Source of the DNA: Chloroflexota bacterium
GTDB taxonomy: Bacteria; Chloroflexota; Anaerolineae; Promineifilales; Promineifilaceae
Assembly (NCBI GenBank): GCA_022616275.1
Contig: JAKEFB010000184.1
Location: 1-43,323 of the forward strand
Length of the DNA stretch: 43,323 nt
Reading direction: 5' to 3'
Part shown: positions 5,890 through 38,155 of the stretch, one piece after another
Layout of the letters: each line of letters begins with the position of its first letter
Position numbering within the stretch: position 1 is the stretch's first letter
Made by a program: the position numbers and the translations under genes
The notes under the pieces: generated by a model
Database searches by the model: none
Told to the model about the DNA's origin: nothing
The model's input: the letters and a program-made list of their open reading frames with translations, nothing else

Positions 5890-5948
5890 AAAGCAATGAG
5901 CGTAGTTGGCAAGGCCAACTGTGAGCGATGAGCAATGAGTGATGAGCA
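5890..5948. repeat. Mini-element: GATGAG/CAATGAG tandem array with hairpin
   Basis: Contains a small hairpin (AGTTGGC and GCCAACT) followed by an array of GATGAG/CAATGAG words. The stretch 5923-5948 is almost identical to 31470-31495, which lies 25 kb away at the end of an unrelated gene. Confidence 0.75.
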
Positions 5949-5969
5949 TGGTCGTATGGTGATAAATAT

Positions 5970-5989
5970 TTCGCGTTAATTCGCGTTAA
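5970..5989. repeat. Tandem TTCGCGTTAA repeat
   Basis: Two perfect adjacent copies of TTCGCGTTAA just after the stop of the FHA/PLDc_N gene. The same word family (ATTCGCG/CGCGAAT) recurs at 7549-7651, 8087-8176, 25842-25942 and 27651-27710. Confidence 0.75.
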
Positions 5990-5999
5990 TTTGATGCTT

Positions 6000-6614
6000 T
6001 TAATTCCCTTCAATAACCAGGACTGAGTTGCCAACCTGGATGTGGTCGCCGAGGCCGACGACTTCGTCCTGGATGGGGGAGCCGTTGAGGGTGGTGCCGT
6101 GGCTGCTGTTTAAATCGCGGAGACGCACCAGGCCGGCCTGTTCGTAAAACTCGGCGTGCTGGCGAGAGACGGCGCTGTCCTGGGCCAGGCGGACCAGGCA
6201 GTCGGCCACCCGGCCGAGCTGGGCCGGCAACGTGTCTACTGTAAAACGCTGGCCGGCGTACGGCCCGGCCGTGGCCGCCAGGGTAAATCCCTGGGTTAAG
6301 GGTTGCTGTCCCGGGCCGGCGCCCTGCCAGGCCACGGCCGCTATCGTCGGCGGGTCCAGGTTAGCCGCTCCCTGAGGCCGCTTCAGCCGGGTCCCATGCC
6401 GCCGCGACCGGCCGCCCGGCCGGCCCAAGGCCAGGTAAGCCAGAAAGCCGACGAAGGGGATCAACCCGGCCAGCAGCCAGCCAAAACGCTGCTGGTCGGC
6501 CAGCTTACGCCGCCCGCTGTCCCAAAAAATATAACCAACAGTGGCGGCCCACAGAATCATGAAGCCCCAAATGGCCGCCAGGCTAACCACCAAGTCAATC
6601 ATTTCCTTCGCCAA
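6000..6614 (-). CDS. Membrane FHA protein with PLDc_N-type helices
   Basis: About 204 residues. Two N-terminal membrane helices (residues about 8-28 and 42-63) surround FWDSGRRKLADQQRFGW and resemble the PLDc_N (cardiolipin synthase N-terminal) helical module. A C-terminal FHA domain follows (residues about 110-204) with PAQLGRVADC, SAVSRQHAEFYEQ and LNSSHGTTLNG. It is the first gene of the minus-strand FHA/cell-wall run. The frame begins at a TTG at 6614; an ATG at 6602 (MIDLVVSL) is a credible alternative, but its AAGGA motif is only about 2 nt away. Function beyond phosphothreonine binding at the membrane is not evident. Confidence 0.82.
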   Translation of the reverse strand: MAKEMIDLVVSLAAIWGFMILWAATVGYIFWDSGRRKLADQQRFGWLLAGLIPFVGFLAYLALGRPGGRSRRHGTRLKRPQGAANLDPPTIAAVAWQGAGPGQQPLTQGFTLAATAGPYAGQRFTVDTLPAQLGRVADCLVRLAQDSAVSRQHAEFYEQAGLVRLRDLNSSHGTTLNGSPIQDEVVGLGDHIQVGNSVLVIEGN

Positions 6615-6692
6615 TCAATGTTTTACACCAGGAAGTTTACCCGAAAAAGCCGATTATGTAACGTCTCCCGGCAAAAGACGTTACAATAAATA

Positions 6693-6749: not shown

Positions 6750-7529
6750 ATGATCACCAGTACCACCAACCCCAAAATTAAGTATATCCGCCGGCTGTTG
6801 AACGACCGGCGCTTCCGCGAGCGGGAACGGGCCTACGTGGTGGAGGGCAGGCGCTGGCTGGCCGAGCTGGCCCGCCTGGCCACGCCGCCGCAACTGGTCC
6901 TGGCCGTGGAGAGCTGGCTGGCCGAGGAGGAGAACCGGCGCCTGGTAGAGGAATTAAATATTTCGGCGCAACCGGTTAGCGAGGCCGTGATGAACCAGGC
7001 CAGTGATACCGAGACGCCGGCCGGGGTTCTGGCCGTCGTGCCCATGATACCCCGGCCATTGCCGGCCGGGCCGGCGCTGCTGCTCATCCTGGACCGCATC
7101 GCCAACCCGGGCAACCTGGGGACGATGCTGCGCACGGCCGCCGCCGCCGGGGCCGACGGGGTCATCCTGGGGCCGGGCTGTGTGGACGCTTACAATCCCA
7201 AAGTCGTGCGGGGGGGAATGGGGGCTCACTTGCGGCTGCCGCTCCACCCGGCCGGGTGGCCGGAGATTGCCGAATTGACGGCCGGCATGGCGGTCTGGCT
7301 GGCGGCGGCCGGCGGCCCGCTGGCCTATTATGACGTAGACTGGCGCCAACCGTCGGCGCTCATCATTGGCGGCGAAGCGGCCGGGGCCAGCGCCCCGGCC
7401 TACCAACTGGCCGGCAGCACCGTCTCTATCCCCATGCAGGCCGAAACAGAGTCGCTCAACGCGGCCGTGGCCGCCGGGATCATCCTCTTCGAAGCCGTCC
7501 GCCAGCGAACAGAGATGGGACGCAGATGA
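6750..7529 (+). CDS. TrmH/SpoU-family RNA 2'-O-methyltransferase
   Basis: A 259-residue SPOUT methyltransferase that transfers a methyl group from SAM to a ribose 2'-OH in tRNA or rRNA. Residues about 20-95 form the substrate-binding N-terminal domain. The catalytic knot domain follows with all three motifs: LDRIANPGNLGTMLRTA (motif 1), IIGGEAAGA (motif 2) and VSIPMQAETESLNAAVAAG (motif 3). Length is normal for the family. The ATG at 6750 is preceded by GAGGGA and a long hairpin. Which RNA it modifies cannot be read from sequence; RlmB-, TrmH- and TsnR-like proteins share these motifs. Confidence 0.92.
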   Translation: MITSTTNPKIKYIRRLLNDRRFRERERAYVVEGRRWLAELARLATPPQLVLAVESWLAEEENRRLVEELNISAQPVSEAVMNQASDTETPAGVLAVVPMIPRPLPAGPALLLILDRIANPGNLGTMLRTAAAAGADGVILGPGCVDAYNPKVVRGGMGAHLRLPLHPAGWPEIAELTAGMAVWLAAAGGPLAYYDVDWRQPSALIIGGEAAGASAPAYQLAGSTVSIPMQAETESLNAAVAAGIILFEAVRQRTEMGRR

Positions 7530-7548
7530 ACGCAGATGATGCTGATAT

Positions 7549-7651
7549 TAAACGCGAATAGCTGCGAATGAGCGTCTTACGCTGAACGAATGACGTGAAT
7601 GAATTAAAAATATTCGCGTCATTTGTTCATTCGCGCTATTCGCGATGAATT
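7549..7651. repeat. ATTCGCG-word inverted repeat element
   Basis: The left half has CGCGAATAG, GCGAATGAGCG and CGAATGACG words; the right half has their complements (ATTCGCGTCATT, CATTCGCGCTATTCGCG) around an AT-rich centre. It fills the convergent gap between two genes and could fold as a long imperfect stem, possibly acting as a bidirectional terminator. Confidence 0.8.
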
Positions 7652-8086: not shown

Positions 8087-8176
8087 TAAACGCGAATCAC
8101 GCGAATAGGCGAATGTCGCGAATAGAATAAAAACAAATATTCGCGCTATTCGCTCATTCGCGCCATTCGCGATTTT
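8087..8176. repeat. CGCGAAT/ATTCGCG inverted repeat element upstream of DUF711 gene
   Basis: Tandem CGCGAAT-type words, an AT-rich centre, then ATTCGCGCTATTCGC and CATTCGCGCCATTCGCG. It belongs to the same family as 7549-7651 and occupies most of the divergent gap, ending about 12 bp before the ATG at 8189. Any promoter for either gene must lie in or beside it. Confidence 0.8.
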
Positions 8177-9958: not shown

Positions 9959-11614
9959 ATGACCCAAACGCGATCCCTTTACTCATTACTGGCCGATTGG
10001 CGCACGGCCGTCGCCGACACCCCCCACCCCCAACCGCCAGCCTACGACGGGCCGGACGTGGAATTGACCGGCTTCGTCGAGCACACCGGCGAGGTTGAGC
10101 CGGGCACGTGCTTCGTCGCCCGCGTCCGCACCGGCTCGGACGGGCACCACTACATCGGCCAGGCCGTGGCCCAGGGGGCCAGCCTTATCCTGGGCCAGCG
10201 GCCGCCGGAAACCCTGAACGTAGCCTTAGGCGACACCTCTTACCTGCAGGTCGAAGACACGGCCATAGCTCTGGCCTGGCTCTCGGCCGCCTGGCACGGC
10301 TTCCCGGCCCGCGAACTGGTCATCGTCGGCGTCACCGGCACCGACGGCAAGACGACGACCACCAACCTCATTTACCAGATATTGCTGGCGGCCGGGCTAA
10401 AAGCGGGAATGCTCAGCACCATCAAGGCGGCCATTGGCGACGCCGAAGAGCCGCTGGCCCTGCACGTCACCACCCCGGAAGCGCCTGTCGTCCAGCACTA
10501 CCTGCGCCGCATGGTGGACGCCGGCCTCAGCCACTGCGTCCTGGAGGTCACCTCCCACGCCCTGGCCCAACACCGGGTAGATGCCATTGATTTCGACGTG
10601 GCCGCGGTCACCAACATCACCCACGAGCACCTCGACTACCACGGCGACTACGAAGGCTACCTGGCCGCCAAAGCCCGCCTCTTTGAGAACGTCGCCAGCC
10701 CTACGAACCATCTCGTCCATCACCCGGCCGTAGTAAAAACAGCGGTACTAAACCGTGACGACGCCTCCTACCAGCGTTTAGTCACTATCCCCGTCCCCCG
10801 CCAGATCACCTACGCCATCAACCAACCGGCCGACGTCACCGCCACCGACATCACCTACACCGCCGCCTCCACCCACTTCACCCTCCACCTCCCCCCTGCT
10901 CTCCTGCCCCTCCTCCCCCCTGCCCCTCTCTCCCCCTCTCCCCCTCTCCCCGCTCGCAGAGCGACCCTCTCCACCCCGCTCGTCGGCCAGTTCAACGTCT
11001 ACAACATGCTGGCGGCGGCCGCGGCCGGCCACGCCCTGGGCCTGTCCCCCGAAGCAATCAAACAAGGCCTGGAAGCCATCGCCGGGCTGAGCGGCCGGAT
11101 GGAGCGGATCAACCGCGGCCAGACCTTCCTGGTCATCGTAGACTTCGCCCACACGCCCAACGCCCTGGAGCGGGCTATCCAGGCGGCCAGGGGAATGACG
11201 ACCGGCCGGATCATCACCGTCTTCGGCAGCGCCGGCAAGCGGGACGTGGTCAAGCGGCGGCTGATGGCCGAAATCTCGGCCCGCGAGGCGGACCTGACCG
11301 TGCTGACGGCCGAAGACCCGCGCACCGAATCGCTGGACGACATCCTGGCCATGATGGCCGAAGGCTGCCGCAGCCAGGGTGGCGTGGAAGGCCAGAGCTT
11401 CTGGCGCGTACCCGACCGCGGCCGGGCCATCTACTTCGCCCTGACCCTGGCCCGGCCGGAAGACCTGGTCCTCATCTGCGGCAAAGGCCACGAGCAATCC
11501 ATGGCCTTCGGCGCCGTCGAATACCCCTGGGACGACCGCCACGCCGCCCGCGCCGCCCTCGACGCCTTCCTGGCCGGCCGGCCGGCGCCCGACCTGGGCC
11601 TGCCGACGTACTAA
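9959..11614 (+). CDS. murE: MurE-type UDP-N-acetylmuramyl peptide ligase, with an internal mini-element
   Basis: A 551-residue Mur ligase that would add the third, diamino residue to UDP-MurNAc-Ala-Glu using ATP. Seen: P-loop GVTGTDGKTT at about 124-133, the HVTTPEAP substrate loop, VLEVTSHALAQHR, NITHEHLDYHG, the Lys of YLAAKARLF that is normally carbamylated, and CGKGHEQ near the end. The amino-acid selectivity motif, usually DNPR in DAP-adding enzymes, reads EDPRTES: Arg is kept but Asp-Asn is changed. Residues about 312-338 are a Pro/Leu/Ser-rich insert before the conserved VGQFNVYN, encoded by repeat DNA. I prefer the ATG at 9959; a TTG at 9929 is in frame. It stands alone, not in a mur cluster, so a paralogue with another substrate is possible. 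Confidence 0.9.
   Translation: MTQTRSLYSLLADWRTAVADTPHPQPPAYDGPDVELTGFVEHTGEVEPGTCFVARVRTGSDGHHYIGQAVAQGASLILGQRPPETLNVALGDTSYLQVEDTAIALAWLSAAWHGFPARELVIVGVTGTDGKTTTTNLIYQILLAAGLKAGMLSTIKAAIGDAEEPLALHVTTPEAPVVQHYLRRMVDAGLSHCVLEVTSHALAQHRVDAIDFDVAAVTNITHEHLDYHGDYEGYLAAKARLFENVASPTNHLVHHPAVVKTAVLNRDDASYQRLVTIPVPRQITYAINQPADVTATDITYTAASTHFTLHLPPALLPLLPPAPLSPSPPLPARRATLSTPLVGQFNVYNMLAAAAAGHALGLSPEAIKQGLEAIAGLSGRMERINRGQTFLVIVDFAHTPNALERAIQAARGMTTGRIITVFGSAGKRDVVKRRLMAEISAREADLTVLTAEDPRTESLDDILAMMAEGCRSQGGVEGQSFWRVPDRGRAIYFALTLARPEDLVLICGKGHEQSMAFGAVEYPWDDRHAARAALDAFLAGRPAPDLGLPTY
10893..10975. repeat. Intragenic CTCCCCCTC-word element in murE
   Basis: A run of CTCCCC/CTGCCCCTC words followed by the near-palindrome CGCTCGCAGAGCGACC (10951-10966). 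The same near-palindrome, with one base changed, is at 20060-20075 inside a radical SAM gene, again beside a purine/pyrimidine run. The insert stays in frame in MurE. Confidence 0.8.
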
Positions 11615-11620
11615 GGATTT

Positions 11621-11706
11621 AATGCAAAGGCGCAAAGGTGCAAAGACGCAAAGGTGCAAAGAAAAAGATCATCTCTGCGTCTTTGCTGCTTTGCATCCTC
11701 GCGTTT
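11621..11706. repeat. GCAAAG-word inverted repeat element
   Basis: Four or five copies of GCAAAGGC/GCAAAGGT/GCAAAGAC, a short centre, then TGCGTCTTTGCTGCTTTGC. It follows the murE stop and belongs to the same family as 12388-12457. A stem of this kind could end transcription. Confidence 0.82.
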
Positions 11707-11806
11707 TGTTTTAATCATTTCCGTGTTATGATCGCAGCCATAACGATCTGTCTGCTTTAGGACGGCCCATTTACGGGCGGCCCATATATGGGCAAGGGAG
11801 AAAATT

Positions 11807-12387: not shown

Positions 12388-12457
12388 TGACGCCAAGACG
12401 CGAAGACGCAAAGAAAGAAATAATCTTTGCGCCTTTGCGTCTTGGCGTCAATTTTTT
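12388..12457. terminator. GCAAAG-family long hairpin with T-run; probable intrinsic terminator
   Basis: Arms 12388-12413 and 12425-12450 pair over about 26 bp with two mismatches (outer core TGACGCCAAGACGC). The loop is AT-rich and the right arm is followed by six T residues at 12452-12457. It lies between the DUF6391 stop and the holA start, so it can act as a terminator for the upstream gene. By sequence it is also a member of the dispersed GCAAAG word family. Confidence 0.75.
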
Positions 12458-14095: not shown

Positions 14096-14168
14096 TTAAC
14101 CGCAGAGGCGCGGAGTCCGCAGAGTTTTCGCCCCTTTTCTCCGCGCTCTCGCCGTCTCAGCGGTAAAA
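14096..14168. repeat. CGCAGAG-word inverted repeat element
   Basis: TTAACCGCAGAGGCGCGGAG and CCGCAGAG on the left; CTCCGCGCTCTCGCCGTCTC and AGCGGTAAAA on the right. It separates the degenerate lyase tail from the end of the radical SAM gene (stop at 14170) and can fold as a long imperfect stem. Confidence 0.8.
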
Positions 14169-14169: not shown

Positions 14170-15660
14170 TTAGAAGCCGGACGTCTCCGGCCGCTGGTAA
14201 GCCACCAACTTATGTAAAGCTCTCAACTCGACAGGGAAGTGATAGAAGCGCAGGTGGTAGCGCCAGGCGCTGGCGCTGCGGAGGATGGTGCGCCAGAAGG
14301 CGGTCAGCCGGGCGTCAGTGGAGGTGGGATAGTAGGCGTTGATCACCCGCTCGAAGTCGTGAATTTGTTCCTGGAGGGTGCGCTTGATCCAGGGCATCGT
14401 TGTGCTACGCCGCTGGGAGAAGTTTAGCCATTCGGGGCTGATCCATTCTTCCAGCGTTTCCGGGAAGGCAAAGCCCTCGGCCCTGGCTTCGTCGTACAGG
14501 TCGCCGGCCAGGGGGACCGGGGTGTAGAGGTACATGATGATCTCGGAGGCCGGGTTGATCCGCTTGACCTTGCGGATGAACTCCATCGTCAGGCGCAGGT
14601 CGGCTTCCGGGTCGGGCGGGTTGCCCATGACGAAAGAAAACTCCGGCACGACGCCGTACGATTTCATCAGCCGGGCCATTTCCAGCGTGCGCGCGGTGCT
14701 CATCTGGCCGCCCTTGTCCATCCGCTTCAACGTCTCGTCCGAGCCGGACTCGGCGCCCATGAAGACCATCTTCAGGCCGGCCTGGCTCATCAGCCGCCAG
14801 GTCTTGTCCGAGTACATTTGCATCGTGTCAATCCGCCCCTCGCCCCACCAGGCCACGCCCAGGTCCATGATCCGCTCGGAAAATTCGGCCACCCGCGCCT
14901 GGTGGGTGAAGAAGTTGTTGTCGTAAAACTCGACGGCGTTGACGCCCCAGCGCTCGTGGTACATCCGCACCACACCGGCCACACTCTCGGCCGTTTGGGG
15001 GAACCAGCGGCCGTTGACCATGTTGACCACCGCGCAGAAGTTGCAAAAGAACGGGCAGCCGTAAGAAGAATGGTAGCCCAATGTCCGCGAGCCGAGGAAC
15101 GTCGGCCGGACGTAGCGGGCCACCGGCAGGCGGTCAAAGTTCCACATTGGCAATTTGGACGGGTGGGGAATGGGGGCCAGCGGGTTGCTGGCCGGTTGGC
15201 CGGTCTCGTCGCGGTAGGCCAGGCCGGGGATGGATTTTAGATTTTCGATTTTAGATTTTGGATTTTGGTCGAGTTCGGCCAGGAGGTGGAGGAAGACTAT
15301 TTCGCTGTGGCCGCGGACGACGTAGTCTATAAAGTCGGAGCGCAGGCAAACGTCCCAGTGTTGGGTGGGGAAGTAGCCGCCCCAGACGATGGTCAGGTGG
15401 GGGTGGCGCTGTCTAAGCTGTTGGCACAGCGACACGGCCTGTTGCAATTGCGGGCCGGGCATGACCGTCAGACCCAGCACCGGCCGGGGGCCAGCGGCAC
15501 GCACGGCCGCGTCCAGCGCCGCCAGCGGGTCGTCCTCCAGGTTGCCGTCCAGGATGCGGTAGTCGTACTGGCCCTCCAGCACCGCGCCCACGGCCAGCAG
15601 CGACATGGGCAAAATCGGCTTGCGATTGGCAGAAGATTGGGGGTTGTAGAGTATGATCAT
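14170..15660 (-). CDS. B12-binding radical SAM protein (COG1032 type), first of three
   Basis: A 496-residue enzyme. Residues about 1-130 form a cobalamin-binding Rossmann domain (LGLTVMPGPQ, IVWGGYFPTQ, YVVRGHSE). The radical SAM core at about 195-410 has the 4Fe-4S motif CPFFCNFC with Cys202, Cys206 and Cys209, and GAESGSDETLKRMDKG. A C-terminal region of about 90 residues has no recognised domain. Such enzymes often methylate or rearrange unactivated carbons; the substrate is unknown. Residues 133-143 (NPKSKIENLKS) are encoded by a dispersed TTTTAGA-word repeat lying just before the conserved IPGLAYRDETG. It is the last gene of the six-gene minus-strand run starting at 21537. Confidence 0.9.
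   Translation of the reverse strand: MIILYNPQSSANRKPILPMSLLAVGAVLEGQYDYRILDGNLEDDPLAALDAAVRAAGPRPVLGLTVMPGPQLQQAVSLCQQLRQRHPHLTIVWGGYFPTQHWDVCLRSDFIDYVVRGHSEIVFLHLLAELDQNPKSKIENLKSIPGLAYRDETGQPASNPLAPIPHPSKLPMWNFDRLPVARYVRPTFLGSRTLGYHSSYGCPFFCNFCAVVNMVNGRWFPQTAESVAGVVRMYHERWGVNAVEFYDNNFFTHQARVAEFSERIMDLGVAWWGEGRIDTMQMYSDKTWRLMSQAGLKMVFMGAESGSDETLKRMDKGGQMSTARTLEMARLMKSYGVVPEFSFVMGNPPDPEADLRLTMEFIRKVKRINPASEIIMYLYTPVPLAGDLYDEARAEGFAFPETLEEWISPEWLNFSQRRSTTMPWIKRTLQEQIHDFERVINAYYPTSTDARLTAFWRTILRSASAWRYHLRFYHFPVELRALHKLVAYQRPETSGF
15233..15268. repeat. Intragenic GATTTTAGATTTT-word array
   Basis: Five imperfect copies of GATTTTAG/GATTTTGG in tandem, inside the first B12 radical SAM gene and kept in frame. 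The complementary word array is at 17454-17485, and parts recur at 38068-38083. Confidence 0.85.
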
Positions 15661-15674
15661 GGTGTCTCGTAATC

Positions 15675-15735
15675 GGAGATTGGAGATTGGAGATTAGAGA
15701 TTAGAGATTGATAATCTCCAATCTCTAATCTCTAT
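15675..15735. repeat. GGAGATTGG-word inverted repeat element
   Basis: Tandem GGAGATTGG/AGAGATTAG words on the left and AATCTCCAATCTCTAATCTC on the right, around TGAT. It fills the 71-bp gap between a methyltransferase stop and the radical SAM start. A related array is at 38092-38150. Confidence 0.85.
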
Positions 15736-16442
15736 TCCCTAACCTCATACATCGTTAGCAATTCGTTGACCAGGTTCTTCTGGGCCACGACGTTTATAGC
15801 AAAGCCGCGCTCGCGGAGCAACGCCAGCAGATCGTCGCCGTCGCCGTCGGAGGAGAGGACGACCAGCGCCCGGCCGCCGGGCCGGAGGGCGTCAGCCAAA
15901 TGGCCGGCAAAGCGCTCAAAGACGTCCTCGCCCCGCCAGGCGTGGTCGAGACCACTCCGCGGCCGGCCGCGGTGGAACGGCGGGTTAAACAACACCAGGT
16001 CGAAGCGCCGGCCGGCGACCGGCGTGAACAGGTCGCCCTGGAGGACCTCGATCTCTTCCTCCAACCGGTTCAGCAGGACGTTCATCCGGGCGCAGCGCAC
16101 CGCGTCCGGGTTGATGTCCACGGCCGTCACCCGCCCCCCGCGCCGGGCGGCAAAAATCGCGCCCACGCCGGAGCCTGTACCTAAATCCAGAACCTGCACG
16201 CCTCGCTCCAGCGGCAGCCCGACCAGCGAGCGGACCATAAATTGGCCCGTCCGCAGCAGGACGGGGTTAAAAACCTCCGGCAAAACAATCAGCGGCACAC
16301 CGTCAATCTCCTCCAGGACCAACCGGCCATAGCGCCGGCCGAGCGCCCGGTAGCGCAGCGCCAGCCAGCGGCGCACCACCGCCCCGATAGCCCGGCCCAG
16401 CCAGGAGGAAGTTGGTTGCAGAGGTATGTCGGTCTTGAACAT
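15732..16442 (-). CDS. Class I SAM methyltransferase, PrmC/RsmC-like (NPPF motif)
   Basis: A 236-residue protein with a Rossmann methyltransferase fold: motif I VLDLGTGSGVGAIFAA near residues 84-99, an acidic loop VTAVDINPDA near 105-113, and the catalytic FNPPF near 152-156. The NPPF/NPPY motif is typical of N-methyltransferases acting on glutamine amides or nucleobase amino groups (PrmC, RsmC, TrmN6 types). The region before motif I (residues 1-80) lacks a known domain. It lies in the radical SAM operon, where it could methylate a small molecule, but a housekeeping role is equally possible. Confidence 0.85.
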   Translation of the reverse strand: MFKTDIPLQPTSSWLGRAIGAVVRRWLALRYRALGRRYGRLVLEEIDGVPLIVLPEVFNPVLLRTGQFMVRSLVGLPLERGVQVLDLGTGSGVGAIFAARRGGRVTAVDINPDAVRCARMNVLLNRLEEEIEVLQGDLFTPVAGRRFDLVLFNPPFHRGRPRSGLDHAWRGEDVFERFAGHLADALRPGGRALVVLSSDGDGDDLLALLRERGFAINVVAQKNLVNELLTMYEVRE

Positions 16443-16460
16443 CTTTGTCCTTGGTCATTC

Positions 16461-16606
16461 GTTATTGGTTATTGATCATCAGGTAACTATCAGCCTCTCT
16501 AGCTGTGGCCGGTCTCAGACCGCGCCACTCCAGGCTCGGTCATGAGACCGGCCTGAGCAGTTACATCATCAGGTGGTAATAACCAATCACCAATTTACCA
16601 ATAACC
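16461..16606. repeat. ATTGGTTATT inverted repeat element interrupted by a second element
   Basis: The outer arms are ATTGGTTATT (16464-16473) and AATAACCAAT (16578-16587), with more CAATCACCAA/CCAATAACC words to the right. Between them lies an 80-bp insert (16485-16564) flanked by the direct repeat ATCATCAGGT (16475-16484 and 16565-16574). Removing the insert and one repeat copy restores a compact palindrome with a 14-nt loop. Confidence 0.75.
16485..16564. mobile_element. Inserted 80-bp hairpin element with 10-bp target duplication
   Basis: The core hairpin pairs GGCCGGTCTCAGACCG (16507-16522) with CGGTC plus TGAGACCGGCC (16537-16553), with one bulged A. It is flanked by perfect 10-bp direct repeats and sits inside another repeat element. 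A partial relative is at 4500-4521. It encodes nothing; the transposing enzyme, if any, is elsewhere. Confidence 0.6.
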
Positions 16607-17414: not shown

Positions 17415-17453
17415 GCTCTGAACTTTAGTAAACCCTCGAAGCACAAGAGTCCT

Positions 17454-29522: not shown

Positions 29523-31478
29523 TTGGGCCGGGGAAGCAGCCATTCCTATATACCGCCCTCTTCTTCACTCACTGATTTGTTGCCCCCCTGGCTCCCGGCC
29601 GCCCTGCTACACGTCCTGCTTCTGGGCCTCTACCTGGACTGGGGCCAGGTCATCGGCAACCCGCCGGTAGCCGACACTGACTTTGCCAGCCACTGGGCCG
29701 AGGCCTGGAGCGTCGGCCACTTCTTGGACCACGGCCGGCTATGGGGCTACGACCCCCACTTTATGGCCGGCCAGCCCGAGGGCACACTCTTCGACGTAGA
29801 CAACAAGCTCGTCGAAGTCGCCACTTGGGCCATCGGCCAAAGCGGGCTGCCGCTGCCCCTGGCCTACAACCTGGTCCTGGCCACGCTCATTCTCATTGCC
29901 CCGCTAACCATTTATCCGGCCGCCCGCTGGCTGGGTCTCGGTCGGCGGGATGCCCTGCTGTCCCAACTGGCAGCCCTGGGCTTGTGGTTTCTGGACCCGG
30001 CGCTGCGCTGGGCCTGGCAAGGTGGGACTTTTGCCTTTGTCGTCACCGTACCCCTGGCCCTGCTGGGCCTGGCGGCGGCGGCCCGTCTCGTCCGGCCTGG
30101 CCCGCCACCCCGGCCGGTGGTCTGGCTGGCCTGGTTCGGCCTCGGGCCGCTCCTGTTCTGGCTGCACGCCCTGGCTTTTGCCCTCCTGGCGTTGCCTCTG
30201 GCCGTCCTCTGGCTGCGCGCCTGGCCGGGGTTGCCCTGGCCTCGCCGGCTGGCCGGCCTCCTCTGGCCGCCCCTGGTACTCCTGGCCAGCCTGCCCTGGC
30301 TGCTGACGACCCTCCGTTTCCTCGGGGCGCGGACCAGCGCCGGCCAGTTTTTACAGGGTGGGCTGCCGGCGCTGGCGGCCGACCTGCTGGGCATCGGCGC
30401 CGTGGACGGCGCGTCCACCGTCAGCCTGCTCGGTCTGCGCTGGCTGGTTTTGCTCCTCGGCGGGCTGGGCCTGGCCTGGCTGGCCCGGCGCAGCGCCGCT
30501 GGGCTGGCCGTGGCCGCGGCCGTCTGGGCCGGCCTGCTCCTGGCCTACGGCGCCGTCCACTTGCCGGGCGGCGGCGACCTGCAACCGTACCGCTACCTCA
30601 AACAGTCTATGCTCTGGTCCACCATCGGCCTCGGCCCCGGCCTGCGGGTCCTCATAGCTCTATTCGCTCCTGGCCCCCATCTTCTCCCTCGCCCCCCAAT
30701 AACCAATCCACCAATAACCACTAACCTCCTCACTCGAACTCTTTTCCTGGCCGCCACCCTGGTCGCCTTATTATGGATTGGTTACGGCGGCTGGCGCTTC
30801 CGGCCGCCGCCGTTAGGCGGGCCGCCCTACAACCAGTGGCAGGGACCGTCGGCCGAGGCCCACGCTTTATGCGACTATCTGCGCACCCTCCCCTTGCAAG
30901 AGGGGCGCGTCCTGCTCGACGACGCCCGCGTCGGCGCATTGCTGCCCTGGTGCAGCGGCGCCCAGGTTATTGGCGGGCACTTTGGCCAGATCTGGACCCG
31001 GTACGGCTTCAGCAACGCCACCCCCTGGAACTTCCTGGACGTCCTCTACCGGGATTACACCGTCGCCGCCTGGCAGCGGGCCATGACCACCTACAACGTG
31101 TACTGGATCGTCGCCCACCAGGCCTGGAATATGCCTGGCTGGTACACGCTGGCCGAGTGGCTGGCCGACCACCCCGACCAGGTCGTCGCCGGCCCGGCCT
31201 TTGGCCCCTACCAGTTCTACCAGGTCGCCCGACCGACCGCTTCCCCCACCTTTTCCGTGCAGGCCGGTGTGGCCGGCCTGCACGTCACCGCCACCCCCGG
31301 CGCAGAATCGTTCGTCCTGCCCTACCACTGGATCACTACTTTACGAACCGTTCCCGCCACCGTCCAAATCCAACCCCAACCCACCGGCCGCGACCCCATC
31401 CCCTTCATTGCCGTCCAGCCAAACGGAGCGACCGATTTCCTTATCTGCCACGAACCACTCTGTCCAAAAGAGCGATGA
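29523..31478 (+). CDS. Large polytopic membrane protein, GT-C-like
   Basis: A 651-residue protein with about ten to twelve hydrophobic helices up to residue 430, then an extracytoplasmic domain of about 200 residues. The first loop reads NPPVADTDFASHWAEAW and GYDPHFMAGQPEG; acidic residues in the first external loop after helix 1 are typical of GT-C glycosyltransferases that use polyprenyl-linked sugars. The 6-pyruvoyl-tetrahydropterin-synthase-related membrane family has a similar plan and is an alternative. The start appears to be a TTG at 29523, one base after the previous stop. Residues about 392-402 (PPITNPPITTN) are encoded by a dispersed CCAATAACC array, and the stop lies in another repeat. 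It probably belongs to the surface-glycan region that follows. Confidence 0.78.
   Translation: MGRGSSHSYIPPSSSLTDLLPPWLPAALLHVLLLGLYLDWGQVIGNPPVADTDFASHWAEAWSVGHFLDHGRLWGYDPHFMAGQPEGTLFDVDNKLVEVATWAIGQSGLPLPLAYNLVLATLILIAPLTIYPAARWLGLGRRDALLSQLAALGLWFLDPALRWAWQGGTFAFVVTVPLALLGLAAAARLVRPGPPPRPVVWLAWFGLGPLLFWLHALAFALLALPLAVLWLRAWPGLPWPRRLAGLLWPPLVLLASLPWLLTTLRFLGARTSAGQFLQGGLPALAADLLGIGAVDGASTVSLLGLRWLVLLLGGLGLAWLARRSAAGLAVAAAVWAGLLLAYGAVHLPGGGDLQPYRYLKQSMLWSTIGLGPGLRVLIALFAPGPHLLPRPPITNPPITTNLLTRTLFLAATLVALLWIGYGGWRFRPPPLGGPPYNQWQGPSAEAHALCDYLRTLPLQEGRVLLDDARVGALLPWCSGAQVIGGHFGQIWTRYGFSNATPWNFLDVLYRDYTVAAWQRAMTTYNVYWIVAHQAWNMPGWYTLAEWLADHPDQVVAGPAFGPYQFYQVARPTASPTFSVQAGVAGLHVTATPGAESFVLPYHWITTLRTVPATVQIQPQPTGRDPIPFIAVQPNGATDFLICHEPLCPKER
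30696..30726. repeat. Intragenic CCAATAACC-word array
   Basis: CCAATAACCAATCCACCAAT plus further AACC words, in frame within the 651-residue membrane protein between two helices. The same word family forms the outer element at 16461-16606. Confidence 0.85.
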
Positions 31479-31500
31479 GCAACGAGTGATGAGCAATGAG
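31470..31500. repeat. GATGAG/CAATGAG array at the end of the membrane protein gene
   Basis: A near-identical copy (25 of 26) of 5923-5948. It overlaps the last codons and supplies the TGA stop (31476-31478). Confidence 0.85.
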
Positions 31501-31515
31501 TGGCTCTGAAACCGG

Positions 31516-32423: not shown

Positions 32424-34163
32424 TCACTGCCTTTCAGAACGAAGACAACACGCGCGGGCCATACCACCGTGAACGAAAATTAATTCGTCTAATTCGTGCA
32501 ATTCGTGGCTATTTTTAGAGTAGTAGGAACCTATCCGAAACAGGGTATATGCCCCATTCCGGCCGATTTCTGTCAGGCCGGGGTTGTCGCGCAGCCAATG
32601 GTAATTTTCGGTCGGCGAGCGGCCGGCCCACTGGCTTTCCACGTTCTCCACTTCTAACAGCAGGTACAGCGGCCGGTCGTCCTCTAGCAACGCTTCCAGC
32701 TCGGCCGGGGTCGGGTAGTAGATATTGATCGTCTCCAGTTCGCTTTCGTGCGCCAGCGTCAGGGCCAGGCCAAAGGCAATCACTCGCGCGTTTGGGGGAA
32801 CCTGGGCCTCCAGCCAGCGAACGGTAGCCACGTTGGCCTGCATCGTGGCAATAAAGCTGCTCGCCAGTCGGTAGCCGCCAATAGCCATCCAGGCCAGCCC
32901 GGCCGCCAGCCACAGCGCCAACACCGCCCGGCCGTACCTCCGTAGGGGCACGATGCATCGTGCCCCTACATTCCAACGCGACAACGCCCCGACCGTCGCC
33001 AGCACGCCGACGGCGGCCAGGATAGCCAGCGGCGGCAGGTAAGTGAGCGTAAAGCGAAAGTTTTGCCAGGGAATGCCGGCCAGGAAGCAATAGACCAGCG
33101 CTGCCCCGCCCGCCACCAGGAACAACGAAGCCCCGGCCCGCCGGCGCAACACTGCCCACAGGCCAGGCAGCAAAAACAGCGCCAGCAAGGGGGAAAAGTA
33201 AAAACTCCGGGCCGGGGCCAGGGCATAATAGAGCCCGTTTGGCAGGCGGTATTGCAGCAGGCCGTCGCTGGTGACGAAGGAGCGGCGCAAGGCATTAACC
33301 GGGCTCCAGGTGACCACCTCCAGGTCAACGGTGAAGGACGGCCCGGCCGGCTTGTCCCCGGCCAGTAGTTGGCCGGCCGGCCCCAGGACCGGGGAGAGAA
33401 CAACCAGCGCCACCAGCCCGGCCAGCAACGCCTGGCCGGCCGCCGCGCGGCGCGGCCGGCGGGCCAGGACGGCGAGAGCGTATAGTGTGGCTATGACAGC
33501 GACCAGCGCCAGCGCCCAACGGACCAGGATGGCGAAAGCCAGCGCCCCGGCCGCCAGCGCCAGCCAGCCGGCGCGACGCTTCTGGCCATAAACGGCCACC
33601 GCCCACGTGCCCAGCGTCGCCGCCGCCAGGCCGGTCGTGTCCGACATGACCACCACGCTCGATTGCCACAGTTGGCCAACGCAGGCCGCCAGCAGCCCAG
33701 CCAGCGCCGCCCCCGGCAGCCGACCCCTGACGCCGGCCGGCCAGAGCCGGGCAGCCAGCAGCGCCGTAAAGAGTGGAACCAGGCCACCGGCCGCCAGGCT
33801 GACCACTTGCCCGGCGCGCGGCGTCACCCCCACGACAAAAGAAATCAAAGCCACCAGCAGCGGAAAGCCAGGCGGCCAATAAAACGGGGGCGGAGATTCC
33901 CCGGCCAGCAGGCTGGCCCGCAGCGGCCCAATAGCGTAATCGTAGTAGGCGTAGGCGTCCTGTCCATAGAGTCCGTTAAAGCCGCTGTCCAGGATTAAGA
34001 AAGCGCCAACCAGCCAGGTAATCAGCGAAGGCAGCGCCAGGGCGATGATCGCCCTGCTCTTGGTCACGGCCCCCGGTATCCTTGCCGCCGGCGGGCTTAC
34101 CACCTTGACCGGGCGCGGGGCCGGCGCTACACTGCTGCGATTTTCGGCGTCGTCACCATGCAT
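32424..34163 (-). CDS. GT-C/ArnT-like membrane glycosyltransferase with internal palindrome
   Basis: A 579-residue polytopic protein with about ten to twelve helices after a basic, Pro-rich N-terminal tail. GLYGQDAYAYYDYAIGPL after helix 1 supplies the Asp69 expected in the first external loop of GT-39/ArnT-type enzymes, followed by PFYWPPGFPLLVALI. It would move a sugar from a polyprenyl carrier onto a glycan or protein outside the membrane. NVGARCIVPLRR in a loop is encoded by a perfect 28-bp palindrome, and the C-terminal NSHELHELDEL by a TTCGTC-word array. Its ATG overlaps that of the divergent flippase gene; a later start is possible because the first 35 residues look disordered. Confidence 0.82.
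   Translation of the reverse strand: MHGDDAENRSSVAPAPRPVKVVSPPAARIPGAVTKSRAIIALALPSLITWLVGAFLILDSGFNGLYGQDAYAYYDYAIGPLRASLLAGESPPPFYWPPGFPLLVALISFVVGVTPRAGQVVSLAAGGLVPLFTALLAARLWPAGVRGRLPGAALAGLLAACVGQLWQSSVVVMSDTTGLAAATLGTWAVAVYGQKRRAGWLALAAGALAFAILVRWALALVAVIATLYALAVLARRPRRAAAGQALLAGLVALVVLSPVLGPAGQLLAGDKPAGPSFTVDLEVVTWSPVNALRRSFVTSDGLLQYRLPNGLYYALAPARSFYFSPLLALFLLPGLWAVLRRRAGASLFLVAGGAALVYCFLAGIPWQNFRFTLTYLPPLAILAAVGVLATVGALSRWNVGARCIVPLRRYGRAVLALWLAAGLAWMAIGGYRLASSFIATMQANVATVRWLEAQVPPNARVIAFGLALTLAHESELETINIYYPTPAELEALLEDDRPLYLLLEVENVESQWAGRSPTENYHWLRDNPGLTEIGRNGAYTLFRIGSYYSKNSHELHELDELIFVHGGMARACCLRSERQ
32478..32515. repeat. AATTCGT-word array at the end of the GT-C gene
   Basis: Four imperfect TAATTCGT/CAATTCGT words encode the C-terminal HELHELDEL of the GT-C protein. 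Same style as the other arrays, and read in frame. Confidence 0.78.
32942..32969. repeat. Perfect 28-bp intragenic palindrome
   Basis: Arms GTAGGGGCACGATG and CATCGTGCCCCTAC pair perfectly with no loop. It sits inside the GT-C gene and is translated as VGARCIVPL. The GTAGGGGC...GCCCCTAC type is, in my recollection, a widely dispersed bacterial palindrome. Confidence 0.92.
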
Positions 34164-35612: not shown

Positions 35613-36668
35613 CGTGGGCCGCAACCCCGGCCGGACCCGCCACCACCAGGCCAGCCCAATGGCCAGCGGTAATAAGAGCAAGGTGTAGTGGTAATCCAGG
35701 GCCACCGGGCTAAGAATCACGCTCAGGACGGCAAAAGCGGCAAAAAGTTCATCACTGTCACCGGCCCGGAGGGCCTCGTAACTGCTAATGCCCACCAGGC
35801 TGAGCAAGGCCAGCCAGGGCAGCGCCGTGGCCAGCCAGGGGGCCGGCCAGAGCGGGGCCGGGTTCCACTGTGGGTTAAAGCCAAACAGGTGGCGGAAAAA
35901 GCTCAGGTGCGTCTGGTAGGCAGTGACGGCCAGCTCCGGCCGGCCGGTGAATCCAGGCAGCAGACGCAAATAGGTCAGCCAGGCGGGTAGCCCCAGCCAG
36001 GGCAAGGAGCCAACAATCACCAGCAACGCCGTTCCGGCCGCCCAGAGCAAAGCCTGCCAGCGGCGCTGGACGACCAGCAGGGGCCAGAGGAGAATGCCGG
36101 CCGTCTTCAGCACCAGCATCAGCCCCAGGGCCGCGCCCAACAACCCGTCTCGCCGCTGGCGGTAGCTGTGCCAGGCGACGACCAGCAGCCCCAGGAGGAG
36201 CACGTAAGCCTGGCCCAGGGCAAAGTTGGCGTACAATGGCTGGTATAACAACAGCACCACCAGCGCGGCGGCGGCCACGTGGCCCGGCAGGGCCGTCTGG
36301 CGGACCAGCCACACCGCCGCCAGGGCCAGGATAACCACATTGAAAGCGGTCCAGACAACCCTGGCTGGTTCGTAACTCAACCCGGCCAGGGGCAGCAGCA
36401 ACAGGGCCGTCGCCGGCGGGCCGACGTTATAGATGTCGCCAATGGTTGGCGTGTCCTGGGCCACCTGCTCGCGGAACCACGCTTCGTCGTAAAACTGGCC
36501 GGCGTCGGCCCCGGCCCGCACCAGCCGGGCGGCCGTATAGTAGGCCGCAAAACCGGAGGTGTGCTGGCGGGCCACCGTCGTGGCAAACCACAAGAAGCGC
36601 AACGCCAGGAGGGCCACCAGCGCCCACAATGCCCAATGAATCAGACGGCGGCTCGTCACAACGTCCAT
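35433..36668 (-). CDS. GT87 (DUF2029) family membrane mannosyltransferase-like protein
   Basis: A 411-residue polytopic protein with about ten helices. HTSGFAAYYTAARLVRAG and the YNVGPPATALLLLPLAGL loop are characteristic of DUF2029/GT87, a family that includes polyprenol-phosphomannose-dependent alpha-mannosyltransferases in actinobacteria. NFALGQAYVLLLGLLV is the typical N-x-x-x-GQ segment. Its own C-terminus continues naturally (LYGGLLLWAILLAGRR) within the overlap with the flippase gene, so in the shared 180 bp this gene appears to be the true coding strand. The ATG at 36668 is followed upstream by two small GC palindromes. Confidence 0.86.
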   Translation of the reverse strand: MDVVTSRRLIHWALWALVALLALRFLWFATTVARQHTSGFAAYYTAARLVRAGADAGQFYDEAWFREQVAQDTPTIGDIYNVGPPATALLLLPLAGLSYEPARVVWTAFNVVILALAAVWLVRQTALPGHVAAAALVVLLLYQPLYANFALGQAYVLLLGLLVVAWHSYRQRRDGLLGAALGLMLVLKTAGILLWPLLVVQRRWQALLWAAGTALLVIVGSLPWLGLPAWLTYLRLLPGFTGRPELAVTAYQTHLSFFRHLFGFNPQWNPAPLWPAPWLATALPWLALLSLVGISSYEALRAGDSDELFAAFAVLSVILSPVALDYHYTLLLLPLAIGLAWWWRVRPGLRPTLLLAAAVLLVAADLPYRSPRLAGGLWALLAYPKLYGGLLLWAILLAGRRAPGPVAVAAE

Positions 36669-36684
36669 TCAACTCACGTTTAAT

Positions 36685-36742
36685 AGCCTCCCGGAGGCTT
36701 GACACTAGAGGTCAGCAGCAAACGTTAACCTCCGGGAGGTTA
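36685..36742. repeat. Pair of CCTCCCGGAGG-type palindromes
   Basis: AGCCTCCCGGAGGCT (36685-36699) and TAACCTCCGGGAGGTTA (36726-36742) are each perfect palindromes with one central base, 26 bp apart, in the gap between two GT-C genes. They are variants of one another and may be two dispersed mini-elements or one composite. Confidence 0.82.
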
Positions 36743-36755
36743 TCTCCGATAGACT

Positions 36756-38057
36756 CTAACGCATTGCCGGTGGTTGCGCAGCTACGGGCGTTTCCTGGCC
36801 TGGTTCAGTCTGCTCACCCATCCACCGGGCCATCAGCCAGGCCAGGACAACCACATGAATAGCCGCTGCTAAAAAAGAAAAAACCTTCAAAATGGCGATG
36901 AGAGTTGGATAGGGGGGTTGCCAGACCACCAGGTTCGTCCACAGCGCCGGAGCAAAAGAAGCCACCGTCGCCAGGTTGAAGAAAAAGGTCAGCGATAAGG
37001 CAACGTAAGCCCACCCATACCTCCGGCCGCCGGCCGCCGGCCGCTCCCAACCGGCCGCAGCCAACAGCAAAAAAGGCAGCACCGGCAGCAAATACCGTTC
37101 GCGCACGCCGCTGAGTAGCAGAAACATCCCTAGCGCCAGCAGGGCCGTCGCCGTAGCCAGCGAAACAGCGCCCCGCCGCCGGGCAACCCGGCCGCAGACC
37201 AGAAAAACAAACGCCCCATACAACCCGGCGCTGAACGTGGCGTAAGAAATGGGCAGGCCGCCCACCTGGTCGCCGGCCGCTGCCTGGGTGGGATCGCCGG
37301 CCAACAAGAGATACCAGAGATTATAGGCCGTGACGACGACCGGTAGCTGGCCGGGCACGTTCGCCCGCAGCAGCTCCACCAGGCGGCCGTTCAGCAACCA
37401 CGGCGCGGCCAGAAGCAGGCCCAACGCGCCGCCGGCCGCCAGCCCCTGCATCAGGCGGCGCAGCCCATAGCGCCCGGCTGTCACCGTCACCAGGAGCGGC
37501 AGCAGGACAAAACTTTGCAGCTTGGTAGCCATAGCCAGCGTCCAGGCCAGCCAGGAAAGGGTAACTCTGCCTTTGGCCAGGGCGGCCACCGCTGCCACCA
37601 GGAAAAAGGTGTATACGCCGTCCAACTGGCCCCACAAGGCCGATACATACCAGGGGCCTGGACTAAAGAGGTAAGCGGCGCAGGCCAGCAGCCGCAACCA
37701 GGGCGGCCGGCCGCGCAACAACCAGGCCATCACCCCGGCCAGCAGCACGTCGGCCAGGGCCGGCGGCAACTTGATCAACACGTTGAGAGCTGCCTCGCCC
37801 CGCAGCCCGGCCGGCAGGCCGGCTTCCACCCATCCGGCCGCCCCGTACAGGTAAGCCGACACCGGCCCATAGGCAGTGTGAGGGGTCCGGCCGTAAAACT
37901 CCGCCAGCCCATGAGCCTGGATCAGCCGTACCCACTCGCGAAAGATAGGCAGGTCGGCCGTCAAGTTCAAATCCCCCGCCAGCCAGGGCAGCCGGACCAG
38001 CAGACCCAGCAGCAAGACCGCCACCAGGTGGCGATTTTGGATGCGAATGCGAAGCAT
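36756..38057 (-). CDS. GT-C-type polytopic glycosyltransferase
   Basis: A 433-residue protein with about ten helices. The first external loop DLNLTADLPIFREWVRLIQ has the acidic residues expected of GT-C enzymes, and SALWGQLDGVYTFFLVAAVA with LAWTLAMATKLQSFVLLPLL resembles PIG-M/DUF2029-like mannosyltransferases and their bacterial relatives. The frame extends to 38099, but those residues (IFRGIQNLKS) are encoded by repeat DNA; the ATG at 38057 is better, although it lies within a small hairpin. It probably extends a surface glycan with the neighbouring enzymes. Donor and acceptor are unknown. Confidence 0.82.
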   Translation of the reverse strand: MLRIRIQNRHLVAVLLLGLLVRLPWLAGDLNLTADLPIFREWVRLIQAHGLAEFYGRTPHTAYGPVSAYLYGAAGWVEAGLPAGLRGEAALNVLIKLPPALADVLLAGVMAWLLRGRPPWLRLLACAAYLFSPGPWYVSALWGQLDGVYTFFLVAAVAALAKGRVTLSWLAWTLAMATKLQSFVLLPLLVTVTAGRYGLRRLMQGLAAGGALGLLLAAPWLLNGRLVELLRANVPGQLPVVVTAYNLWYLLLAGDPTQAAAGDQVGGLPISYATFSAGLYGAFVFLVCGRVARRRGAVSLATATALLALGMFLLLSGVRERYLLPVLPFLLLAAAGWERPAAGGRRYGWAYVALSLTFFFNLATVASFAPALWTNLVVWQPPYPTLIAILKVFSFLAAAIHVVVLAWLMARWMGEQTEPGQETPVAAQPPAMR

Positions 38058-38155
38058 TCGTCCAGATTTTAGATTTTGGATTCCCCGGAAAATCTCCAAT
38101 CTCCAATCCTTCGGCGTAGCTCAGGACAAGTCTCCAATCTCTAATCTCCTCCCTC
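38041..38155. repeat. Composite of three repeat types between two GT-C genes
   Basis: From left: the hairpin CGAATGC-GAA-GCATTCG (38044-38060) over the GT-C start codon; GATTTTAGATTTTGGATT words (38067-38083); and two AATCTCCAATC arrays flanking CTTCGGCGTAGCTCAGGACA. Each part recurs elsewhere in the window or looks like a known type of dispersed repeat. Confidence 0.75.

Follow-up and report, generated by a model that had tools for sequence, protein, structure and literature searches.

Opposite-strand tandem arrays of many short words lie with their G-rich strands facing each other in a Chloroflexota genome

The genome of a Chloroflexota bacterium carries tandem arrays of 7–8 nt words, which are simple sequence repeats of the 5–11 nt class, and where two such arrays lie close together on opposite strands their G-rich strands face each other, whether the two words are complementary or not. 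Such a constant facing direction hints that DNA is added by a polar process and not simply copied from a hairpin. Bacterial heptamer repeats have long been reported (Mrazek, 2007, as cited in PMC4692102), and heptamer arrays in Xanthomonas and Nostoc, as well as convergent pairs in Xanthomonas, are already described in the available text of Rehm et al. (2015; PMC4692102), the closing remark of which leaves the function of heptamer repeats ‘to be elucidated’. What is new here is the turnover of many words together with a polarity that is independent of complementarity. The polarity rule and this independence make the question of origin testable, and they point to directional, strand-specific synthesis.

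Abundance and facing direction of the arrays

The window, that is the whole stretch of DNA analysed, comprises 43,323 nt (contig JAKEFB010000184.1 of assembly GCA_022616275.1), with the repeats spanning positions 5,890–38,155. The first-pass annotation of this DNA had described many short repeat loci, and in our count the window holds 22 loci with arrays, some of them single and others paired convergently; its list of words was correct, yet incomplete, and it omits the almost invariable 5′ placement of the G-rich arm. As refuting its view it had named absence of the repeats elsewhere in the genome or a frequency no higher than in shuffled sequence, and neither was the case. Arrays occur genome-wide, 172 of them in a sample of 1,073,507 b (about one-eighth of the genome), and in non-coding DNA 30 period-7 tandem windows were observed against 0.10 expected and 10 period-8 windows against 0.05, the expectation being obtained by shuffling 220 non-coding segments (together 39,586 nt, from 416 kb of the same genome) 20 times at the dinucleotide level. 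The view that unrelated words share one architecture likewise held, the arrays of the sample falling into 44 word groups, with an inverted partner present for 66 of 142 array clusters and absent for the 76 that are singles. Heptamers are dominant (period 7 in 79 of 120 arrays), and a partner scoring at least 14 was found for 45 of 120 arrays in their own flanks but for 1 of 120 once flanks had been swapped. The identical finder returned 0 arrays from 50 kb of E. coli K-12. Arrays sit mostly between genes and some lie inside them; genes were called with a simple GC-frame caller that fails on low-GC genomes (of 40 kb each it left 37 kb uncalled in Flavivirga and 17 kb in a Bacteroidales genome), so that array densities in such genomes are not comparable.

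Among the 66 hairpins of the own-genome sample, 59 are G-first, 6 C-first and 1 equal, G-first against C-first being 7:0 in divergent and 9:0 in convergent gaps; GGAGATT pairs picked by word alone gave 53 G-first and 1 C-first. When opposite-strand neighbours no more than 60 nt apart were compared, with overlapping loci dropped, the G-rich strand came first in 136:2 complementary and 25:0 non-complementary pairs; a less strict count gave 138:2 and 23:0, with 2 G-first ‘direct-similar’ pairs in addition, and 69 neighbours within this distance lie on the same strand. For strictly unrelated words the ratio was 20:0, about 15 of these pairs being independent, since L262, L264 and L278 represent one orthologous gap and L013, L125 and L187 look, by eye, like diverged copies of one word. 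That words which are not complementary keep the same G-first order argues against hairpin formation as its cause. Abutting arrays with different words, some of which are one word at two periods, were on the same strand in 47 cases, G-first in 23 and C-first in 1. These neighbour and abutting-array counts took in 80 listed loci picked by GGAGATT and 31 further such loci, and orthologous elements of relatives are not independent of each other.

At distances above 200 nt many pairs are C-first (for unrelated words, for example, G-first to C-first was 7:31), so the C-first orientation is not forbidden as such. C-first hairpins accounted for 8 of 78 among the 80 matches listed of the GGAGATT-picked loci, 2 of 5 in genome G024, 2 of 7 scored in G044 and 2 of 2 in Flavivirga. 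Polarity was slight (58:42 of 111) for hairpins in array-free gaps. Single arrays had no strand preference relative to genes (coding 25, template 20), and pairs are fewer between divergent genes as a trend only (7 of 84 against 56 of 379 gaps, p 0.16).

Array loci in the window

Eleven of the 22 loci lie in gaps, six at or over the ends of called ORFs (5922, 5965, 7520, 31470, 32480 and 38061) and five well inside ORFs (10888, 15231, 17066, 20000 and 30696). Convergent pairs are formed by GCAAAGGT (11613..11719; period 8, score 20), by GACGCAAA/TTTGCGTC (12388..12450), by GGAGATT/AATCTCC (15671..15746; arms of 34 nt, loop of 3 nt) and by GTTGATG/CATCAAC (26967..27048; arms of 38 nt and no loop). 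The second of these fills the gap between DUF6391 and holA, for which the counts in our comparison were taken by eye from a printed list. Two further pairs join ACGCGAATC to TATTCGCGC (8090..8171; period 8–9) and ACGCGAATGA to ATTCGCGTC (25845..25939; period 9), an outer GGTTATT/AATAACC pair has further palindromes nested within it (16451..16606), and imperfect pairs of CGCGAAT(G) words (7552..7645) and of CCGCAGAG/CTC(A)GCGG (14098..14166) were recognized by reading the sequence by eye. At 38061..38149 is a mixed-word element, with AGATTTT on the left and AATCTCC on the right. Single arrays consist of GATGAGC/T at period 7 (5922..5948; TRF and sequence), AATCCAA/AATCTAA (17453..17486; TRF included) and TGTCGTC (24519..24546; TRF).

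Several arrays touch genes. An array of TTAATTCGCG has period 10 (5965..5995), two copies of ACGCAGATGA overlap the stop codon of a SpoU-type methylase gene at 6750–7529 (7520..7539), a GATGAGC array found by TRF spans the stop of ORF 29523–31478 (31470..31502), within which lies a CCAATAA array (30696..30726), and a period-9 array of AATTCGTGC is close to the 3′ end of ORF 32424–34163 (32480..32508). A CCTCCCC-type array within the Mur-ligase ORF 9929–11614 encodes Pro/Leu-rich residues 320–343 (10888..10955). A GATTTTA array occupies a linker of a B12-radical-SAM ORF, residues 131–144 (DQNPKSKIENLKSI; 15231..15268), a GTTGATG array residues 115–127 of a methyltransferase ORF (TTNHQPSTTNHQL; 17066..17102), and a GAGAGGGG array the interdomain residues 209–221 of a third B12-radical-SAM ORF (20000..20044).

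Turnover and vocabulary of the words

The comparison of orthologous gaps that the first-pass annotation had proposed was carried out, and relatives carry different words at the same place. In the same gap related species have different words, another palindrome or nothing, and they differ likewise in array content at the same protein linker; for one interdomain linker an array was present in 6 of the 11 orthologues read, in five different word make-ups. By reshaping gaps and one interdomain linker between close species, arrays act as a rapid local supply of novel sequence. Whole-unit slippage shows up as 14- and 7-nt alignment gaps between G022 and G051. A change of word keeps the strand and sometimes the phase, and in G022 and G035 GGTAATTG adjoins GGGAGATT in an 8-nt step. 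At least one word family, GGAGATT, is shown to expand or vanish between close species. A single genome can hold hundreds of dispersed matches to a word that 29 of 53 family genomes lack altogether. Words therefore spread inside genomes, and the claim that the repeats reflect a common generating process ‘rather than descent’ was overstated.

Foreign words no more than one letter from own-genome words numbered 18 of 84 in the family (mean of shuffled words 13.5, maximum 20), 23 of 101 in other Chloroflexota (mean 16.9, maximum 24) and, slightly above the shuffles, 6 of 26 in other phyla (mean 3.1, maximum 5; 30 shuffles). We therefore discarded a vocabulary shared across genomes, which is near the letter-shuffled level and is shown only for GGAGATT, searched by name. 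GTTGATR, with 14 matches in the own genome and 2 in one of 52 relatives, was dropped as a private word, its reversed-letter control giving 2 and, in that relative, 5. Within the genome, letter-shuffled words formed 106.6 groups against the 44 observed, the largest held 8.2 against 36, and groups of at least three numbered 17 against 14.3; this grouping counts the two arms of one pair as two arrays. In own GGAGATT units (n=186) position 1 is G in 102, A in 83 and T in 1, every other position being at least 90 % one base, and this degenerate design is weaker in other genomes (n=827; G 588, A 207). Per array the degenerate-purine design is modest (0.56 against 0.47 expected). Adjacent units differ at position 1 more often than expected in own arrays (identity 0.36 against 0.51) and slightly less often in other genomes (0.66 against 0.62). 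The mechanism proposed below does not depend on a design of six conserved positions and one degenerate purine.

Origin of the arrays and their relation to known repeats

Our best explanation of the observations as a whole, put forward tentatively and at rather less than even odds, is that polar extension of G-rich 3′ ends gives rise to arrays and pairs, on which selection and slippage then act. An array would originate when a G-rich 3′ end, left by a chromosomal break or by stalling, is extended stepwise in polar fashion, the template being a short one or a pre-existing array; extension of both ends and their rejoining would yield a head-to-head pair, extension of one end only a single array. 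Selection would leave arrays chiefly in gaps and protein linkers, slippage would afterwards rewrite them, and the hairpin would be a by-product. For the pairs, then, we infer that two G-rich 3′ ends grow towards each other and are joined. Counting against end extension, both arms are usually of one word, so that one shared template would be needed, some pairs are C-first, a few near-perfect palindromes look copied, and the comparisons yielded no empty site that was clean and had a legible junction. The arrays do not need a standard reverse transcriptase, because no RVT_1 match was found in G050 (222 GGAGATT-triple matches) or in G024 (array-rich in 40 kb), and RVT_1 was set aside as a necessary part, as was Ku, which 52 of 53 family genomes lack.

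The main competitor needs no special enzyme: it combines ordinary heptamer-biased polymerase slippage with ectopic recombination, or with template switching at microhomologies, among dispersed arrays, and it would trace polarity to an asymmetry between G-rich and C-rich nascent strands as they slip or switch. We regard it as possible, if on the unlikely side. It accords with length changes of whole-unit size, with homogenization of arms from AATCTCC to AATCCCC in close relatives, with the TTGG common to chimeric arrays at a word switch and with the over-representation of heptamers in many bacteria (Mrazek, 2007, via PMC4679880 and PMC4692102, as far as these relate it), but slippage or switching alone does not produce opposite-strand pairs, and the 20:0 ratio among unrelated neighbours is left unexplained. 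The annotation had proposed slippage with template switching or hairpin copying. Its slippage part is borne out by unit-size slippage and in-phase word change, but the making of arms by hairpin or fold-back is not: in 53 word-picked pairs of the main word, GGAGATT, own arms match no better than foreign ones (19.08 against 19.53), a mean as high as that observed arose in 1917 of 2000 permutations, and longest exact arm runs are 15.6 for own and 15.8 for foreign arms (57 pairs). Fold-back copying or strand-switching on a quasi-palindrome, by which the second arm is made from the first and then blurred by slippage, is thus highly doubtful to us. Three near-perfect palindromes with loops of 1–3 nt, extending past the repeats (L038:15597, L232:143 and L048:10906), and one compensatory pair (G023/G001) look as if they were copied. 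Own arms were also in excess among own-genome pairs picked for complementarity, clearly for GGAGATT (n=19; 18.4 against 16.6, 2/2000), slightly for GGTTATT (n=6; 64/2000) and not clearly for five other word groups, an excess that such selection can itself create. Pairs of unrelated words show the same polarity, however, and among hairpins of any kind comparable between relatives 6 pairs were compensated and 37 broken.

Hairpins functional at gene ends, as terminators, mRNA 3′ structures or insulators selected while their sequence drifts, are improbable. The median start is 3 nt past the upstream stop in ++ gaps, codirectional gaps are 73–87 % filled (medians), and among 73 pairwise comparisons of orthologous gaps, homologous elements included, both sides had a hairpin in 24, one side in 24 and neither in 25. 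Yet a stem followed by a T tract, as in an intrinsic terminator, is not what we found: a T4 run stands at the 3′ end in 2 of 66 (background 6.3 %), an A4 run at the 5′ end in 3 of 66 (control 5.0 %), and the coding strand shows no preference for G–U over A–C (63 against 64), on which grounds selection at the RNA level was rejected. Moreover, 7 of 66 lie in divergent gaps, arrays occur within genes too and 76 of 142 clusters are partnerless. REP/REPIN–RAYT elements are short dispersed palindromes in gaps; the arrays differ in having no fixed tag or single sequence, in arms that are tandem arrays and in the fewness of Y1 transposases. We likewise give little credence to transposase-driven miniature mobile elements, REPIN/RAYT-like or MITE-like, whose ends are inverted iterons. 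They would account for dispersal and rapid turnover, for a gap of 375 nt that has GGAGATT arrays close to either end and corresponds to overlapping genes in G001, and for the Y1 transposase locus L006, where the match is preceded at about 30 nt by a period-6 ACTCTA array and followed at about 0.9 kb by a GTTATTG pair. Set against this, 17 word groups with at least three arrays in one-eighth of the genome face 6 matches to the Y1 family, the transposases searched for; two of the six carry a different palindrome, arm length, loop and word vary freely, and no target duplication was seen in alignments between relatives. RAYT-borne REP/REPINs, in which one and the same repeat flanks a linked Y1 transposase gene, were rejected, as TRF finds array words at only L006 among the six Y1_Tnp loci.

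Returning to end extension, the pair pattern resembles, by analogy, head-to-head telomeric repeats, the fusions of which place the G-rich strand first. That Chloroflexota possess a telomere-like end-healing, with templated 7–8 nt steps on G-rich 3′ ends at chromosome breaks and head-to-head joining, is an unlikely proposition; were it true, the genome would be littered with interstitial, word-switching telomere-like tracts, by which gaps and linkers evolve. Vertebrate interstitial telomeric sequences are described, in the text available, as tandem repeats, short and telomere-like, that are introduced when breaks are repaired (PMC8537989; PMC7215372). They share the sequence-independent head-to-head polarity (here 20:0 for unrelated neighbours, some not independent), but involve telomerase and one word, whereas the present arrays are bacterial and of many words. 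The bacterial DRT10 reverse transcriptase makes tandem-repeat DNA from a short RNA template (9-nt unit in Eco3) as protein-linked single strands, with no genomic insertion described in the text available (PMC12632851); unlike in that system, RVT_1 is absent from some array-rich genomes here.

The STRRs of cyanobacteria are heptamer-dominated tandem repeats attributed to slippage. So, too, are the LSSR(5–11) of prokaryotes (Mrazek, 2007, via PMC4679880 and PMC4692102), with which our arrays share units of 5–11 nt beyond chance, dominance of heptamers and whole-unit length change; inverted pairing, polarity and word turnover are no part of that class as these two papers describe it. In Beggiatoaceae, TAACTGA repeats form 169 direct sets and one ‘indirect’ repeat, mostly just upstream of start codons, with related heptamers rare, according to the available text of MacGregor (2015; PMC4679880); these are likewise intergenic heptamer arrays scattered over phyla, but of one word. 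The heptamers of Xanthomonas and Nostoc, GGGAATC and GGGGA(C/T)T, are, in the text available, of one type per genome and interpreted as G-quadruplex repeats, with inverted pairs of the ‘convergent’ kind numbering 70 and 75 in two species of Xanthomonas, few such pairs in Nostoc, and the repeat kept in the same gene context of a sister species in 83 % (Rehm et al., 2015; PMC4692102). Ours resemble them in being intergenic, in having one degenerate position, in a trend towards scarcity between divergent genes, in length and sequence that differ between close relatives, and in the G-rich-first pairing of the Xanthomonas type (59:6:1 of 66; 136:2). They differ from the repeats of that account in their 44 word groups in 1.07 Mb, in words that swap at the same gap and in a polarity that extends to unrelated words. 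G3 tracts, judged by reading the words, are lacking in the main words here (GGAGATT, GTTGATG, GATTTTA and GTAATTGG, with at most GG), and minor words with GGGG do occur.

Abundance and distribution of the word arrays

The first-pass annotation had described a dense population of short repeats, many unrelated words sharing one tandem-plus-inverted design, and this picture is borne out. Within the window, which covers contig C88 completely (the genome measures 8.53 Mb in 309 contigs), TRF and direct reading identified 22 array loci, single or paired. In 39.6 kb of non-coding DNA from 416 kb of this genome (the window and 20 further stretches), 30 period-7 windows were observed against 0.10 in shuffles and 10 period-8 windows against 0.05; over the 416 kb, the period-7 rate per kb was about 20 times higher in non-coding than in coding DNA. 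Arrays recur elsewhere in the genome, 1.07 Mb (the window and 60 stretches) containing 172, mostly non-coding, in 142 clusters, which extrapolates arithmetically to roughly 1,400 genome-wide. An inverted partner is present in 66 clusters and absent from 76. The 172 arrays form 44 word groups (106.6 for letter-shuffled words), the biggest holding 36 arrays (8.2) and 17 holding at least three (14.3). Another 42 period-7 or -8 windows, many GC-rich, lie inside called genes of the sample.

Heptamer repeats and convergent pairs have been described in Xanthomonas by Rehm et al. (2015; PMC4692102), and citing papers credit the heptamer excess to Mrazek (2007) (PMC4679880, PMC4692102). In the openly accessible literature, we found no description of many words under one architecture in Chloroflexota, or of polarity between unrelated words.

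The same array finder returned 4 to 29 arrays per 100 kb in sampled Chloroflexota. E. coli, sampled over 50 kb, yielded none, and some were present in samples of Dyadobacter and of one Bacteroidales genome, selected for containing GGAGATT. Searching species genomes for exact GGAGATT triples gave at least 111 stretches, the 80 listed being mostly from Chloroflexota, with some Bacteroidota and Verrucomicrobiota, a Pirellulales and a Chamaesiphon. Among 53 Promineifilaceae genomes, including our own as sole member of its genus, such matches (overlapping ones counted) numbered 219 in our genome, 376 in G051, three in G049 of the same genus, and zero in 29 genomes; a reversed-letter control matched once in each of two genomes and in no other. 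GTTGATR triples numbered 14 in our genome (control 2), two in G010 (control 5) and none in the remaining 51. GGAGATT, at least, expands and vanishes fast.

Word turnover in orthologous gaps and genes

The gene content of the window is ordinary (SpoU methylase, DUF711, Mur ligase, DUF6391, DNA polymerase III delta, B12-radical-SAM proteins, methyltransferases, a PALP enzyme and a GT87-type glycosyltransferase), and orthologous gaps of relatives can carry different words at the same place, as the first-pass annotation had proposed to check. Between DUF6391 and holA, clear arrays were seen by eye in seven of 30 family loci: GACGCAAA in our genome, 8-mer pairs of GTTGCG/GTGGCG type in L058 and L063, GCGTGAT in L071, GTGGTTA in L074, GTGGCAA in L069 and CTTCTCC in L059. 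Matches were weaker in L066 and L078, L057 and L062 had no DUF6391 match, and at that threshold none was seen in the remaining loci. In closer genome pairs (DNA about 83-92% identical over aligned parts), single gaps held a GGAGATT pair in G023 and a GATTGAC array in G001; a GGAGATT pair in G051 and a GTAATTG pair in G022, with flanks 90-93% identical; and a GCGTGAT pair in G051, an unrelated palindrome in G035 and neither in G022. Several arrays are common to relatives (e.g. G022 and G035), one differs between G022 and G051 by 14- and 7-nt unit gaps, and one arm is altered from AATCTCC to AATCCCC.

Inside genes, arrays occupy the linker between B12-binding and radical-SAM domains in six of the 11 loci read (of 13): GATTTTA in our genome, GGTGAGC in G052, GGGAGATT/GGAGATT in G050, GGTAATTG adjoining GGGAGATT in G022 and G035, and a GGTAATC-like tract in G051. 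The linker lacks an array in the other five, two of them just 27 nt long. ORF-internal arrays at 15231-15268, 17066-17102, 20000-20044 and 30696-30726 encode low-complexity peptides, two of the four in interdomain linkers. Such arrays are a source of lineage-specific protein segments.

Polarity of the pairs

The G-rich arm lies 5' (G-first) in 59 of the 66 pairs of our genome, 3' (C-first) in six and equal in one; 16 of 22 word groups are G-first, four, each of a single element, are C-first and two are tied. By flanking gene strands, G-first:C-first counts were ++ 17:3, -- 23:3, +- 9:0 and -+ 7:0, and GGAGATT pairs picked by word alone gave 53:1. Relatives and triple-GGAGATT loci mostly, though not always, share this polarity: 19:0 by eye among the matches listed for G044 and G045, 11:0 at holA loci and 70:8 in the 80 listed of at least 111 triple-GGAGATT stretches, with 5:2 in a G044 sample, 3:2 in G024 and 0:2 in Flavivirga. 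Opposite-strand neighbouring arrays at most 60 nt apart, overlapping loci left out, gave 136:2 for complementary and 25:0 for non-complementary words, and 20:0 for the strictly unrelated subset (score at most 8, words differing by three or more letters), three of these 20 coming from one orthologous gap. Beyond 200 nt C-first neighbours are frequent, and ordinary hairpins in array-free gaps gave 58:42 (n=111). Since both orientations of a word pair make the same duplex stem, stem stability should be unable to select orientation, and between unrelated words there is no stem at all. What sets the polarity must be either the way in which arrays are made or a directional binder.

Pairs begin near the upstream stop codon and occupy most of the gap. 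However, they generally lack a T tract (present in two of 66), show no preference for G-U (63 vs 64) and occur in divergent gaps too, arrays also lying inside genes. There is no sign of selection on the hairpin itself, save its recurrence on both sides in 24 of 73 orthologous-gap comparisons.

Origin of the arms and other palindromes

Hairpin copying, one generating process proposed in the first-pass annotation, is not supported for the arms of the main word, GGAGATT, which do not behave as copies of each other: mean arm-arm score in 53 GGAGATT pairs was 19.08 for the own partner vs 19.53 for foreign arms, and the longest exact run in 57 pairs 15.6 vs 15.8. Pairs of our genome chosen by complementarity showed an own-arm excess for GGAGATT (18.4 vs 16.6) and GGTTATT, which can be a product of that choice. 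Compensated changes were few: comparable hairpins, whatever their kind, offered 420 ungapped paired cells, with six changes compensated vs 37 broken and 14 G-U. Polar extension of G-rich 3' ends fits best; two ends so extended may point towards each other across a break and be joined, and the word could switch on the growing strand. At L140:7412-7578, GGAGATT is outermost on both sides and GTCAGAG lies solely inside the right arm, the pattern expected from inward growth. The closest parallel appears to be vertebrate telomeric repeats inserted at breaks (PMC8537989, PMC7215372). DRT10 is a bacterial enzyme making tandem-repeat DNA off a short template (PMC12632851); RVT_1 is absent from two array-rich genomes, G050 and G024, and we therefore do not claim DRT10 as the array maker. 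Ku is absent from 52 of the 53 family genomes. A close rival to polar extension is slippage with template switching among arrays, which involves no special enzyme.

The AGGTGACAGTCACCT palindrome (6703-6740; also L004, L005 and L019:10056) shows no G skew in exact copies; copies adjoin Y1 transposase genes on contig C22, so that, in contrast to the arrays, it may represent a genuine REP-like family. Nested palindromes at 16451-16606 and L209 (about 2090-2200) combine array pairs with enclosing or enclosed palindromes of the same gap, and 24440-24484, within a long gap, is a ATTAGCCTAATCATG palindromic repeat that differs in type from the word arrays. A dispersed AACCTCCCGGAGGTT palindrome family occurs at L014:6653, L007:10866 and L010:19331, and at L048:10906 and L232:143 GGAGATT words are joined to a GGCAAC word related to this family. 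In G050 (L266, L267, L277, L279) GAGATT carries one or two spacer bases, giving periods of 7 and 8, as if this six-letter core were the repeat unit. A period-6 ACTCTA array (L006:1444-1471) sits some 30 nt ahead of a match to Y1 transposase.
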